From positions 1-57,990 of the forward strand of contig JAPLCU010000190.1 in the NCBI GenBank assembly GCA_026392045.1: a DNA stretch of 57,990 nt. Direction: 5' to 3'. Positions 1 to 50,986 of the stretch are shown here, in pieces. Under the pieces are notes generated by a model, which was not told the DNA's origin, did no database searches, and saw only the letters and a list, made by a program, of their open reading frames with translations. The stretch comes from Armatimonadota bacterium (GTDB taxonomy: Bacteria > Armatimonadota > UBA5829). Each line of letters starts with the position of its first letter. Position 1 is the first letter of the stretch. The position numbers were made by a program, and so were the translations under genes.

Positions 1-239
1 GTGTCATAAGGAAATGCTAGATTTGAAAGCTTATCATGCTGCTCATCCTTCGAGAGCCTCAGGATGGCGAAGTGGTAACTTGGCGAAGTGGACTGAATGA
101 CTCGTGCGAAGACAAATCAATAACTCAGAACTCAGAACTCAGAACTCAAAACTCAAAACTATTACATCGAATGCTATGGGACGCTAGTGAATCAAGTTCG
201 GAATGACAAATACACTAAGACTGAACTCTTACGAAAATC
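1..239. other. Repeat-rich intergenic stretch at the window edge
   Basis: No convincing gene is seen. The stretch holds a fragment of the 'CCTTCGA...CTCAGGAT' repeat near 47-65, a heptamer array, and a short palindrome ending in TCGTAAGAG that abuts the first GTAA-ended element. It looks like a landing zone for repeats. Confidence 0.5.
122..156. repeat. Heptamer array, five units of AACTCAG/AACTCAA
   Basis: Three AACTCAG units are followed by two AACTCAA units in uninterrupted 7-nt register, and a degenerate sixth unit (AACTATT) follows. The same heptamer builds the 231-bp array at 48337-48567, so this is a dispersed short tandem repeat family. Its role is unknown. Confidence 0.8.
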
Positions 240-411
240 GTAAGAGCTCACTCTTGATGAGTACAATGTGAGCATGCTGAGCTCCGTCGAAGCACGCGGC
301 AGGGAAATTACATTTGATTAGACTTATCCACACCCTTCGTCCTTCGACGCTGCTCAGGATGGCTCAGGATGCTAGTTTGTACGTGTATTCTCACAAAGAG
401 TGAGCTGTTAC
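240..411. mobile_element. GTAA-ended MITE-like element, copy A (172 bp)
   Basis: The left end reads GTAAGAGCTCACTCTT and the right end is its inverted match AAGAGTGAGCTGTTAC. Inner arms carry GAGCTCCGTCGAAG and a diverged partner, so the whole copy could fold into a long hairpin. A 7-bp direct repeat GAAAATC flanks it at 233-239 and 412-418. This copy is about 17 bp longer than the other three through extra sequence in its right half. It encodes nothing. GTAA termini and 8-bp duplications are the hallmark of the IS66 family, so a non-autonomous IS66 derivative is inferred. Confidence 0.8.
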
Positions 412-6145: not shown

Positions 6146-6164
6146 AAAAAACCTCGTGTGTTTA

Positions 6165-6318
6165 GTAAGAGCTCACACTTGATGAGTAGAATGTGAGCAT
6201 GCTGAGCTCCGTCGAAGTATGCGGCTACGAAGTGACATGTAACTAAACTTGACCGCGCCCTTCGACGGGCTCAGGATGCTAGTTTGTACATATATTCTCA
6301 CGAAGAGTGAGCTGTTAC
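6165..6318. mobile_element. GTAA-ended MITE-like element, copy B (154 bp)
   Basis: Same terminal inverted repeats and interior as the other copies (GTAAGAGCTCACACTT at left, AAGAGTGAGCTGTTAC at right). The 8 bp on either side are TGTGTTTA and TGTATTTA, a target duplication with one mismatch. It lies between two genes on the same strand and separates the GH65-like gene from the SDR/ADH pair. Confidence 0.85.
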
Positions 6319-6337
6319 TGTATTTAGACTTGATTTG

Positions 6338-12730: not shown

Positions 12731-12797
12731 AGAAGTTATTTTTAGTTGCTTCGGTATCCTGATGCCGAAGCCTACCGCACATCATGAATAATATGGG
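12731..12797. repeat. GTTGCTTCGG hairpin repeat, copy 1
   Basis: The core GTTGCTTCGG...CCGAAGCC (12745-12772) forms a short hairpin. About 67 bp including both flanks are nearly identical to 46174-46240. Members also lie at 29852-29929 and, inverted and diverged, at 38319-38346. It stands in the 216-bp gap upstream of the fucosidase gene. Confidence 0.8.
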
Positions 12798-22779: not shown

Positions 22780-22855
22780 TTCTGCTCCAATTGCGAATTA
22801 GTTCGCCTCAATTATCCTACGGAGCAGTAAACTAAGTCAAATTCTTGTTGGGAAT

Positions 22856-23010
22856 GTAAGAGCTCACTCTTGATGAGTACAATGTGAGCATGCTGAGCCC
22901 CGTCGAAGTATGCGGCTACGAAGTGACATGTAACTAAACTTGACCGCGCCCTTCGACGGAGCTCAGGATGCTAGTTTGTACGTATATACTCACGAAGAGT
23001 GAGCTGTTAC
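22856..23010. mobile_element. GTAA-ended MITE-like element, copy C (155 bp)
   Basis: Ends GTAAGAGCTCACTCTT and AAGAGTGAGCTGTTAC. It is flanked by perfect 8-bp direct repeats TTGGGAAT at 22848-22855 and 23011-23018. It lies between the divergent ubiD and fucosidase genes, about 20 bp upstream of the fucosidase promoter. Confidence 0.9.
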
Positions 23011-23031
23011 TTGGGAATCGTCATCGCGGAG

Positions 23032-23060
23032 TTGACAAAACTCTTGTGCTAATCCATAAT
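23032..23060 (+). promoter_or_regulatory. Near-consensus sigma-70 promoter for the second fucosidase
   Basis: TTGACA, exactly 17 nt, then CATAAT. The predicted start near 23067 gives a leader of about 95 nt. The adjacent MITE insertion may have changed upstream control. Confidence 0.7.
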
Positions 23061-23159: not shown

Positions 23160-24710
23160 ATGAAACTAAAGATCACACGTAATGTTCTTATCGCCTGCAT
23201 GTCGCTGATGGCTGCGTGCTTTATCGGCTCCGAAGCGCTCGCCGCGGATACCCCGGAATGGAAAGGCGCGACACCTGCCCCCGTGCCTGCCGGGCCATTC
23301 AAGCCCACATGGGAATCGCTGGAGAAATACACGATTCCAGAGTGGTACAAGGATGCCAAGTTCGGCATATTCATCCACTGGGGCGTCTACAGCGTGCCCG
23401 GATTCGGCAGCGAGTGGTATCCCAGGCAGATGTATCAGCAGAACTCCGGGGAATTCAAGCACCACGTTGCTACTTACGGCCCGCAGTCCAAGTTCGGCTA
23501 TAAGGATTTCATACCCATGTTCAAGGCCGAGAAATTCAATGCCAAGCAGTGGGCCGACCTCTTTAAGAAAGCCGGCGCAAAATACGTTGTGCCGGTAGCC
23601 GAGCACCACGACGGTTTTGCGATGTATGACAGCTCGCTCACCAAATGGTGCGCAGCCAAGATGGGCCCAAAACGAGACATCATAGGTGAGCTCGCCAAGG
23701 CCGTGCGGGCAGACGGCATGATCTTCGGCCTTTCCAGCCATCGCGCGGAGCACTGGTGGTTCCTCAATGGCGGAATGGCGTTCGACTCGGACGTCAAAGA
23801 CCCAAACTACTTCGATTTCTATGGCCCAGCTCAGCCCGATCGAGGCCCAAGCAAGGCCTATATGGACGACTGGCTTGCCAGGTGCCAGGAGCTCGTCGAC
23901 AAATATCACCCCCAGGTGTTCTGGTTTGATTGGTGGATAGAGCAGAATGAGTTCAAACCTTACATTCAAGACTTCGCCGCTTACTATTACAACCGCGGAG
24001 CCGAATGGAAAAAGGGCGTTGCAATCAACTACAAAAACAGAGCGTTCCCTGAGAAAGCCGCAGTGCTTGATCTTGAGCGAGGCGGACTTGGCGGCATAAG
24101 GGACTCGCTCTGGCAGACGGACACATCCGTTTCGAAGAACTCATGGGGATACATCGTAAACCAGAATTACAAGAAGTCCAACCAGATCGTGTATAACCTG
24201 ATCGACATCGTCAGCAAGAACGGCGTGATGCTCCTCAACATCGGCCCCAAGCCCGATGGTACCATCCCTGATCCCGAGCAGAAGATGCTGTTGGATATAG
24301 GCAAGTGGCTGGCCGTAAACGGCGAGGCTATCTACGGTACCCGCGCGTGGAATATCTACGGCGAGGGCCCGCAAAAGATCAGCGGCGGATCGTTCAGTGA
24401 TGGCGCCGAGTATCAGTTCTCCCCCAATGACTTCCGGTTCACCACCAAGCCTGGCACAGTCTATGCGATCACGCTCGCCTGGCCGACAGATGGTAAGCTG
24501 GTTGTAAGGTCTCTTCCAAAATCGACAGCCGGCGCGGTCACCAATGTCAGCCTGCTCGGCTACAAGGGCAAGCTGCAATGGAACCAGGACGAGACAGGCC
24601 TGTCCGTCACACTGCCGGCACAGCAGCCCTGCGAATACGCCTATTCGCTCAAGATCACCGGTAAGGGTCTCAAAGGAACCGTTCCGGTCAACACAACTCA
24701 GGCTCCCTAG
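23160..24710 (+). CDS. Secreted alpha-L-fucosidase, GH29, with C-terminal sandwich
   Basis: A 516-residue exported GH29 enzyme with signal peptide MKLKITRNVLIACMSLMAACFIGSEALAA in several short runs. Motifs: YKDAKFGIFIHWGVYSVP, VVPVAEHHDGFAMYDSS, MIFGLSSHRAEHWWF, the nucleophile region PQVFWFDWWIEQ, and NGVMLLNIGPKPDGTIPD. The last 120 residues (EYQFSPNDFRFTTKPGTVYAI...) form the C-terminal beta-sandwich usual for GH29. It differs enough from the 12.9-kb fucosidase to suggest another linkage preference. AGAGAGGGA lies upstream of the ATG. The stop codon TAG lies inside the terminal repeat of a mobile element, so the last codons may have been altered by insertion. Confidence 0.92.
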   Translation: MKLKITRNVLIACMSLMAACFIGSEALAADTPEWKGATPAPVPAGPFKPTWESLEKYTIPEWYKDAKFGIFIHWGVYSVPGFGSEWYPRQMYQQNSGEFKHHVATYGPQSKFGYKDFIPMFKAEKFNAKQWADLFKKAGAKYVVPVAEHHDGFAMYDSSLTKWCAAKMGPKRDIIGELAKAVRADGMIFGLSSHRAEHWWFLNGGMAFDSDVKDPNYFDFYGPAQPDRGPSKAYMDDWLARCQELVDKYHPQVFWFDWWIEQNEFKPYIQDFAAYYYNRGAEWKKGVAINYKNRAFPEKAAVLDLERGGLGGIRDSLWQTDTSVSKNSWGYIVNQNYKKSNQIVYNLIDIVSKNGVMLLNIGPKPDGTIPDPEQKMLLDIGKWLAVNGEAIYGTRAWNIYGEGPQKISGGSFSDGAEYQFSPNDFRFTTKPGTVYAITLAWPTDGKLVVRSLPKSTAGAVTNVSLLGYKGKLQWNQDETGLSVTLPAQQPCEYAYSLKITGKGLKGTVPVNTTQAP

Positions 24711-29548: not shown

Positions 29549-30553
29549 TTACTCCTTTGTGCCGTCGGCCATTGTTACGTTGCGCAGCCGGACGAATGGC
29601 CCAACCTCGCAGTTTGCCCCGATATTGCTGCCCCGCTCGATCACGGTGCATGGGTGGATGATTGTGTCCTTACCAATCAGGACATCGCAGTCTATATATG
29701 CGCTCGCGGGGTCGATTATGGTCACCCCTGCAAGCATGTGAGTTTTGTTTATTCGCCGTCTCATCTCAGCCGCCGATGCAGCCAGTTCGACGCGGTTATT
29801 TATGCCCATCACATCGATAGCGTTGTCGGCTATCACAGCTCCCACCTTCCCGTTGCTTCGGTATCCTGATGCCGAAGCCGGTCCAGTGTTGTTGCTTCGG
29901 TATCCTGATGCCGAAGCTGGTCCAGTGTTGCCGAGCATTCCTATAACATCCGTGAGGTAATACTCACCCTGGGCGTTGTTGTTGCGCAGCATTGCCAGCT
30001 TTTCCGCAAGAAGAGCCTTGTGGAAACAATATATTGAAGTGTTGATCTCGCCTATTGCGAGGGTTTTTGCGTCAGCGTCTTTGGCTTCGGTAATGCACAT
30101 CACCGAGCCGTTGTCGTCGCGCACTATGCGGCCGTAGTGAGTGGCATCGTCCAGAACAGCCGTCAGCAGCGTTGCCGCGTTTCCGGTAGAGGCGTGGGTA
30201 TTTATGAGATCAGCGAGCGTCTCAGACGTGATCAGGGGCGCATCGCCCGGCAGCACGACAACATCCGTAATGTCCTGGGCAATGCTTGGCATAGCCTGCA
30301 GGCATGCGTGTCCGGTTCCGAGCTGCTCGAACTGGTAAGCGTAGGAGATATCCTCGCCGATGGCGGCCTTGACCTTTTCGGCCTCATATCCCACCACAAC
30401 GACCACATCTTTAATACCCGCGGCAATGCAGGCATCCACGATGTGCCGAGTCATAGCCTTCCCGCAAATCGTATGCGCGCCCTTAGGCAAGGCAGACTTC
30501 ATCCTCGTGCTCTTACCCGCCGCCATAATGACGGCAGCAAACTTGTTACTCAA
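29549..30553 (-). CDS. glmU: GlmU-like uridylyltransferase, shortened, with duplicated repeat insert
   Basis: The N-terminal part is the sugar-1-phosphate uridylyltransferase of GlmU: AAVIMAAGKSTRMKSALPKGAHTICGKAM, FEQLGTGHACLQ and VVVLPGDAPL. It should make UDP-GlcNAc for cell-wall synthesis. Two departures stand out. First, NTGPASASGYRSN occurs twice in a row where normal GlmU runs straight on to the VIADNAIDVMGINNRVELA segment; the insert is a translated copy of a dispersed hairpin repeat. Second, the left-handed beta-helix stops after about four turns (DGTKE-stop), so the acetyltransferase site is missing. About 334 residues against roughly 450 in GlmU. A TTG start with GGGGAGGG 6 nt upstream is preferred. 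It heads the prs-pth unit. Confidence 0.85.
   Translation of the reverse strand: MSNKFAAVIMAAGKSTRMKSALPKGAHTICGKAMTRHIVDACIAAGIKDVVVVVGYEAEKVKAAIGEDISYAYQFEQLGTGHACLQAMPSIAQDITDVVVLPGDAPLITSETLADLINTHASTGNAATLLTAVLDDATHYGRIVRDDNGSVMCITEAKDADAKTLAIGEINTSIYCFHKALLAEKLAMLRNNNAQGEYYLTDVIGMLGNTGPASASGYRSNNTGPASASGYRSNGKVGAVIADNAIDVMGINNRVELAASAAEMRRRINKTHMLAGVTIIDPASAYIDCDVLIGKDTIIHPCTVIERGSNIGANCEVGPFVRLRNVTMADGTKE
29852..29929. repeat. Tandem 39-bp copies of the GTTGCTTCGG hairpin repeat within a CDS
   Basis: Two adjacent 39-bp units differ at one base. Each starts with the hairpin GTTGCTTCGG...CCGAAGC and ends GGTCCAGTGTT. 39 is a multiple of three, so both copies keep the glmU-like frame and add 26 residues. 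Confidence 0.9.
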
Positions 30554-30678
30554 AACAACCCTCCCCAGCAATTCCCAGAGACAATTATAGCAGATTGGCG
30601 AGGGGATGGTAATGGCTGTTATGGTTTATAGATCAGAATTGACATGGATACCGTAAGACTGCTACGATAGAAGCTAAA

Positions 30679-46173: not shown

Positions 46174-46240
46174 AGAAGTTTTCATTAGTTGCTTCGGTAT
46201 CCTGATGCCGAAGCCTACCGCACATCATGAATAATAAGGG
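46174..46240. repeat. GTTGCTTCGG hairpin repeat, copy at 46.2 kb
   Basis: Nearly identical to 12731-12797 across 67 bp, including the CCTACCGCACATCATGAATA right flank. Both copies lie upstream of genes for secreted glycoside hydrolases, here the GH127-type enzyme. Confidence 0.8.
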
Positions 46241-48293: not shown

Positions 48294-48324
48294 GTCGGGA
48301 TTAGAGCAAAGCCCTAATCCCGAC
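48294..48324 (+). terminator. GTCGGGATTAG hairpin after the GH127-type gene
   Basis: GTCGGGATTAG and CTAATCCCGAC pair around a 9-nt loop. It shares the GTCGGGATT core with the hairpin at 33441-33465, so a repeat family used as terminators is likely. Confidence 0.7.
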
Positions 48325-48336
48325 ACCAACCCATCC

Positions 48337-48567
48337 CTTCCCCAACTCATAACTCAAAACTCAAAACTCCTCAAATCCCTTCCCCAACTCAAAACTCATA
48401 ACTCAAAACTCCTCAAATCCCTTCCCCAATTCATAATTCATAACTCAAAACTCAAAACTCCTCAAATCCCTTCCCCAATTCATAATTCATAATTCAAAAC
48501 TCAAAACTCCTCAAATCCCTTCCCAAACTCAAAACTCATAACTCAAAACTCATAACTCATAACTCAG
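48337..48567. repeat. 231-bp heptamer array, 33 units in strict register
   Basis: The array is read entirely in 7-nt words: AACTCAT, AACTCAA, AACTCCT, CAAATCC, CTTCCCC, AATTCAT, AATTCAA and AACTCAG. The set AACTCCT-CAAATCC-CTTCCCC recurs as a higher-order spacer between AACTCA-type blocks. The length is exactly 33 x 7. The last unit contains the stop codon of the minus-strand HTH gene. It is not a CRISPR: the units are far too short and there are no unique spacers. Confidence 0.9.
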
Positions 48568-49067
48568 CTATGCCTCCCTCGTCTCACCTCGCTCAGATAA
48601 ACCTCAAACCACCCTGCGTAAGGCCCTTCTCTGTATACTTGTCTCAATTTTCGGCGCGCTAGCCTTAGGTGAAGCTCTGTGCGGCGGCGCCCGATGCCCA
48701 GCATTTGCGCAATTTCCCGCGGGGTCATGTTGGAGAAGTGCAGCCTGAAGCAGATTTCTTCAATAGGCTTAAGCCCAGCAACATCAATAAGTCCATCCAG
48801 GCGTTGACTCAGCAGGTGTTGGTTTACCTCTTCGGGAATGTCGTCGTGTTGCATAAATGGTGAGTGCTTTTTCTCTAATCGACTTCGTCTTGCGAGCTGC
48901 ACCTCGGTGTAAGTCCCATGCGTGCGCCCCAGATGATCGGTCGCAGCCAGCAGCGCGTCTGCTGCTTGCTCCAAAGTCAGTTTTCCGGTCTCTAAGCGGC
49001 GCTTAACCTCCGCGACTGCGTCTTTCCGGCTCTTGATGGTTAGAATGTTTGCGTGTTTAGTATACAT
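48564..49067 (-). CDS. Sigma-70 region-4-like HTH protein
   Basis: A 167-residue protein. The N-terminal half is helical and charged (KDAVAEVKRRLETGKLTLEQAADALLAA). The C-terminal half matches sigma region 4: LKPIEEICFRLHFSNMTPREIAQMLGIGRRRTELHLRLARRKL, a helix-turn-helix that normally reads -35 elements. Region 2 is missing, so it is not a complete sigma factor and more likely a regulator or anti-sigma-type adaptor. AGGAGG lies 5 nt before the ATG and a consensus promoter precedes it. Its stop codon falls within the last heptamer of the repeat array. Confidence 0.75.
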   Translation of the reverse strand: MYTKHANILTIKSRKDAVAEVKRRLETGKLTLEQAADALLAATDHLGRTHGTYTEVQLARRSRLEKKHSPFMQHDDIPEEVNQHLLSQRLDGLIDVAGLKPIEEICFRLHFSNMTPREIAQMLGIGRRRTELHLRLARRKLRQVYREGPYAGWFEVYLSEVRRGRHS

Positions 49068-50786: not shown

Positions 50787-50817
50787 GCGAATCTACCTCC
50801 AAAGGCGCAATATTATG

Positions 50818-50972
50818 GTAACAGCTCACTCTTGATGTGTACAATGTGAGCATGCTGAGCTCCGTCGAAGTATGCGGCTACGAAGTGACATGTAACTAAA
50901 CTTGACCGCGCCCTTCGACGGAGCTCAGGATGCTGGGTTATTCATGTTTTCTCACTAAGAGTGAGTTGTTAC
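50818..50972. mobile_element. GTAA-ended MITE-like element, copy D (155 bp)
   Basis: Ends GTAACAGCTCACTCTT and AAGAGTGAGTTGTTAC. Perfect 8-bp direct repeats ATATTATG flank it at 50810-50817 and 50973-50980. With copy C it gives two exact 8-bp target duplications, which fixes the element boundaries and indicates transposition. Confidence 0.92.
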
Positions 50973-50986
50973 ATATTATGCAAGCG

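Follow-up and report, generated by a model that had tools for sequence, protein, structure and literature searches.

The window analysed here is the whole 57,990-nucleotide contig JAPLCU010000190.1 of a draft metagenome-assembled genome (MAG) of 3.55 Mb from the phylum Armatimonadota (assembly GCA_026392045.1). It carries four forward-strand copies of a miniature inverted-repeat transposable element (MITE) with inverted ends of the type GTAA(G/C)AGCTCACTCTT. Copy A (positions 240-411, 172 bp) has a type I core whose repeat is partly duplicated, and is flanked by the 7-bp direct repeat GAAAATC at 233-239 and 412-418. Copy B (6165-6318, 154 bp) lies between TGTGTTTA (6157-6164) and TGTATTTA (6319-6326), a target site duplication (TSD) matching at 7 of 8 positions. 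The TSDs of the two 155-bp copies are perfect over 8 bp: TTGGGAAT at 22848-22855 and 23011-23018 for copy C (22856-23010), and ATATTATG at 50810-50817 and 50973-50980 for copy D (50818-50972). These positions, ends and flanking repeats agree with the initial annotation of the contig. A different element of the same terminal inverted repeat (TIR) family, with the end sequence AAGACTGAACTCTTAC, terminates at position 232, only 7 bp left of copy A. Since the left GAAAATC exactly fills this gap, the repeat is common to two tandem elements. The neighbouring element lies on the reverse strand at 1-232; only its end part is present (the end itself is 217-232), the rest being cut off by the contig end, and a further MITE, with ends ACCGTCCCATA, interrupts its type III core.

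The 155-bp elements fold over almost their entire length, as had been predicted. The whole-element folds reach -77.5 kcal/mol (z = -9.8) for copy C and -71 kcal/mol (z = -6.6) for copy A. The earlier proposal that the hairpin would place an RNA structure wherever it lands is correct as a statement on folding only. An RNA gene or a terminator was considered and rejected, since a strong hairpin is expected from long inverted arms and a terminator scan gave one weak site.

Copy numbers in the genome were derived from pattern searches. The TIR pattern with up to two mismatches matched 141 times (72 + 69), compared with three matches (1 + 2) for the backwards-read control, so the family far exceeds chance; copy C used as a BLAST query gave 73 matches. 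About 70 copies with several core types are thus present, of which the initial annotation had seen four. The elements are mostly 113-188 bp long, have terminal inverted repeats and lack coding capacity, consistent with the short non-autonomous element originally proposed and with the size and copy number of MITEs. The flanking repeats, which that proposal required at most other copies as well, were found there: after scripted end pairing on the retrieved loci, about 34 of 52 complete elements had a perfect 8-bp TSD. Type I (148-188 bp), to which the window copies belong, comprised 30 complete elements, 18 of them with a perfect 8-bp duplication. In the remainder, the duplication matched at 7/8 positions in five elements and at 6/8 in two, was 7 bp long in one (copy A) and 9 bp in another (L077), and was missing in three. 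Among about 20 type III elements (120-123 bp, core TGTCATTCCGAACTTGATTCGGAATC), 14 had a perfect duplication, and it was still perfect in some whose outer end had mutated to ..CTCTCTC or ..CACATAC (L005, L041, L066, and L071). The core types of this genome have only the ends in common.

One insertion (L095) could be compared with an unoccupied site, since its joined flanks match the window at 48376 and 48516, a paralogous empty site within a low-complexity repeat. Low-complexity arrays of AACTCAAAACTC units occur in the window at 115-160 and 48302-48571, and one such array elsewhere was a MITE target. The second MITE family, with ends ACCGTCCCATA, was found nested in type III cores at L064 (3128-3515, where the composite element reaches 388 bp), L036, L074, and window positions 1-232. 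Two contigs, represented by L049 (C90:1-141) and L094 (C193), share exactly 141 bp consisting of a 21-bp flank and a 120-bp MITE and then diverge, which may reflect either a branch in the assembly or a MITE-associated rearrangement.

GTAA termini and an 8-bp duplication, both present in the MITEs, characterize IS66 insertion sequences (IS) (PMC3281130, PMC12888890); ISPpa5a and ISPpa7 are examples with the 8-bp TSD (PMC3281130). The initial annotation had predicted an IS66 transposase gene with the same ends in the genome or its relatives, and such a gene was found not in the MAG itself but in G002, a genome from its bacterial family. Its single IS66 gene, with a DDE_Tnp_IS66 match, lies in a 1,440-bp element (L123, 983-2422) with ends GTAACAGCTCAGTCTTGATGAGTA and GTAACAGCTCACTTTCGATGAGTA and the perfect 8-bp TSD CGTATTCT. 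The element is filled by one open reading frame (ORF) of 442 amino acids (1066-2391), whose product matches Pfam PF03050 (7e-39) and NCBIfam transpos_IS66 (NF033517, 1.9e-72) above cut-off. The accessory genes tnpA and tnpB of the classical IS66 group are missing from this partner IS, which therefore resembles the ISBst12 group, the single-ORF group of IS66 (PMC12898284; e.g., ISDge4 of Deinococcus geothermalis). GTAA-type ends, the 8-bp duplication and, in the partner, a single-ORF DDE transposase of about 440-450 amino acids are shared with that group; the window elements differ in being gene-free and in sharing no more than about 24 bp per end with the IS. A one-protein IS66 scan of a genomic collection gave three loci, two in Armatimonadota MAGs of the order, one of them partial.

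Alignment of the MITEs with the partner IS showed about 24 similar bp at each end, including the subterminal GATGAGTA, and no similarity further in. The MITE is thus an IS66 "shell" rather than an internally deleted IS66. Of the earlier suggestion of an IS66 derivative, the link to IS66 is supported, while origin by internal deletion is not supported, since the subterminal sequence shared by MITE and IS stops after these 24 bp. Near-identical ends were present in IS66 elements of three further genomes, namely G017 (transposase 60% identical to that of the partner IS, ends GTAAGAGCTCACTCTTAATGAG), G134 (48% identical, ends GTAAGAGTTCACTCTTGATGAG, duplication GCAAAAGA), and G096. Transposases 43%-60% identical to that of the partner were accompanied by similar ends, and those with at most 30% identity by the general GTAA..TTCA pattern only; on sequence comparison, TIR likeness tracks transposase identity across IS66 elements. 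Assignment of the MITE ends to a lineage-specific single-ORF (ISBst12-like) branch of IS66 is well supported by these similarities, and it is very probably an IS66-type transposase present in relatives that moves the MITEs.

The family extends to three other genera. The end pattern matched 104-120 times in G008, 76 times in G016 and 44 times in G018, against 1-6 matches in controls, and the elements there agree with those of the MAG in their ends and 8-bp duplications and differ in their cores (GTCATTCCGAGGAGGAACGACGAGGAATC-type in G008, ACCCTCTCCCTCAAGGGAGAGGG-type in G016, and CCCCCCTTCTAAAGGGGGG-type in G018). About 20 further places in the MAG carry the type I core with no GTAA ends around it. 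We infer that the IS66 ends form a shell that captured resident palindromic repeats several times. Half of the type I core, CCGCACCCTTCGACGGAGCTCAGGATGCT, stands alone without GTAA ends at L189-L208 (e.g., L205, 288-336); some of these solitary copies lie in coding-looking DNA, and one forms a 24-bp tandem array. Another short palindrome, GTTGCTTCGGTATCCTGATGCCGAAGC, is present in the window at 29852-29929, 12745-12783, and 46188-46226. At the first of these sites, two tandem copies lie in frame in a GlmU-like ORF (29549-30571) and encode a 13-amino-acid repeat (NTGPASASGYRSN), resembling palindromic elements inserted into protein genes. Five matches to Y1 tyrosine transposases, the type associated with repetitive extragenic palindromic (REP) sequences, were found in the MAG (C24:28686, C96, C65, C107, and C179).

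Several known systems share part of this organization. MITEAba12 with ISAba12 (PMC6382973) and MITEPsy1 with ISPsy2 (PMC3189936) are likewise short and non-coding, with TIRs and a TSD length matching an IS, and in MITEAba12 the identity with its IS is also limited to the TIRs. Unlike in these pairs, the partner here is an IS66 found in a relative and not in the MITE-bearing assembly, one end family contains several unrelated cores, and insertions are phased to promoters. In the mosaic Tn3-derived miniature elements known as TIMEs (PMC4133298), one set of ends also mobilizes differing interiors; there the transposase is of the Tn3 family and the interiors are other DNA, whereas the window family contains palindromic repeats. 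The cores look like the inverted pairs of palindromic repeats, also found solitary in the genome, of REP sequences and bacterial interspersed mosaic elements (BIMEs) (PMC2817692), except that here the palindromes travel inside an IS66 shell.

Promoter phasing was noticed in the MAG beside the insertions, without having been planned as a test, and the analysis was then repeated in the three other genera. Among 118 distinct element ends of the MAG (G000), TTGACA was found within 40 nt in the outward direction in 12 and in the inward direction in none, and promoter-like pairs (score of at least 10/12, spacer of 16-18) numbered 21 outward and five inward. The pooled set comprised 305 distinct ends from the four genera after removal of near-identical flanks. 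In 26 of them, two of which (G016, L250) are near-duplicates, the first base of a -35 hexamer TTGACA (5/6 or more matching) lies exactly 15 nt out from the element end, where 1.6-1.8 were expected (mean per offset inward 1.6, Poisson p about 1e-22). The adjacent offsets 14 and 16 had five ends each, over a background of 1.6-1.7. The offset-15 sites came from G000 (11/118), G008 (10/89), and G016 (5/63). In an intergenic control, drawn from the window only, the hexamer occurred at this offset at 0.6% per end and the offsets were flat. A -10 hexamer matching at least 4/6 accompanied 17 of the 26 sites, compared with 25% of TTGACA sites in intergenic DNA generally (p = 1.5e-5), and one matching at least 5/6 accompanied 10, compared with 5.9% (p = 1.2e-6). 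In these genomes, promoter phasing is thus statistically established.

The phased promoters face away from the element. Copy C is located between two divergent sigma70-like promoters. On the left, a reverse-strand promoter (22811-22840; TTGACT, 18, GATAAT) has its -35 hexamer starting 15 nt from the element end; on the right, the -35 hexamer of a forward-strand promoter (23032-23060; TTGACA, 17, CATAAT) upstream of the ORF at 23160-24710 starts 21 nt away. A second group of promoters was found at offsets 3-11 from element ends. Three elements (L005, L006, and L045) lie upstream of tRNA genes with outward-reading promoters, the genes starting 52-58 nt beyond the element. At the autonomous IS66 copy of G002, TTGACA occurs 7 nt beyond one of the ends.

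Taken as a whole, the family is best explained, with high probability, as non-autonomous MITEs with IS66 ends that are mobilized in trans, carry interchangeable cores and do not insert at random, a sizeable minority being phased to sigma70 promoters. An IS66 transposase acting in trans would recognize the ends GTAA(G/C)AG(C/T)TCA(C/G)TCTTGATGAG and insert the element with an 8-bp target duplication. Since the interior consists of interchangeable palindromic cores and not of IS66 DNA, whatever DNA is flanked by two suitable ends can travel. In the phased cases the element end lies 15 nt (the 8-bp TSD plus 7) ahead of the -35 box of an outward-reading promoter, and this phasing suggests promoters as the target at which the element inserts. 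With the -35 hexamer taken to start near -36, the duplicated target corresponds to roughly -51 to -44, just upstream of the -35 box, which in the most likely mechanism would be the DNA selected by the IS66 transpososome. This region is contacted by the C-terminal domain of the RNA polymerase alpha subunit (alphaCTD), to which the duplicated target may thus be linked. Selection could proceed via promoter-bound RNA polymerase (the alphaCTD / sigma4 region) or by direct reading of the promoter DNA. Such an insertion would spare genes and core promoters, the hairpin taking the place of the upstream regulatory region. In its strongest form, in which the IS66 transposition complex of this Armatimonadota order targets active sigma70 promoters at a distance fixed to the base pair and joins the element some 50 bp ahead of the transcription start, probably via promoter-bound RNA polymerase, so that MITEs with exchangeable cores spread as upstream-promoter insulators, this proposal is possible and remains tentative.

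Several observations weigh against targeted, IS66-driven insertion. No IS66 gene was found in the MAG by a PF03050 search of the assembly, in which relatives of the partner transposase were also sought, and a search of the retrieved loci for an autonomous element, in which ends were paired over distances of at most 3.5 kb, gave one chance pair only. The partner IS is known as one copy, in another genus, and its identity with the MITEs is limited to the ends. Phased promoters are found at no more than about 8.5% of the ends, corresponding to roughly 17% of elements, and none of the 35 ends of G018 had an offset-15 hexamer. Purifying selection against insertions into genes and core promoters also contributes and is inseparable from targeting by sequence alone.

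Random IS66-mobilized insertion, with the promoter pattern left by selection for survivors, is nevertheless improbable as the full account. In its favour, ORFs of at least 150 amino acids contain only 6 of the 37 elements that could be tested, compared with 80% of random positions, and in a compact genome it is the intergenic DNA near promoters that can safely take an insertion. A broad upstream distribution would then be expected, whereas the observed peak is one base wide in three genera over a flat intergenic control, which counts against selection alone. A transposase that reads a short motif, TTGAC 7 bp past the duplicated target, with promoters being irrelevant, would account for the single-base precision of the motif's distance from the TSD, and a good -10 box is missing from 9 of the 26 offset-15 sites. 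The excess of -10 boxes at the offset-15 sites and the promoter group at offsets 3-11, together with the elements close upstream of tRNA genes, count against such a bare motif, and we regard it as rather unlikely, less so than selection alone. Membership of another transposon family that also makes 8-bp duplications, its ends resembling those of IS66 by convergence, could account for the lack of an IS66 gene in the MAG and in the MITE-bearing G007, G011, and G014, where the exception is a 62-codon IS66 remnant with two stops in G007. This explanation is highly improbable, being strongly disfavoured by the 24-bp match, including GATGAGTA, to a TSD-flanked IS66 of the same bacterial family and by the recurrence of matching ends in several IS66 elements.

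IS66 transposition is poorly understood. In the open-access literature, subscription papers being outside the search, we found no IS66 MITE, no promoter targeting by IS66, base-pair-phased or otherwise, and no characterization of IS66 target choice. The one-base insertion peak upstream of -35 boxes in three genera provides a concrete and testable target rule, and the use of one set of ends on unrelated palindromic cores helps to explain the spread of common interspersed palindromes. Yeast Ty elements insert upstream of genes transcribed by RNA polymerase III. If the targeting is true, promoter-directed insertion of the MITEs would be a bacterial counterpart, and bacterial DDE transposons can home on the transcription machinery as these eukaryotic elements do. 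Since upstream promoter regions would be replaced at many genes, including tRNA genes, such insertions could rewire regulation systematically.
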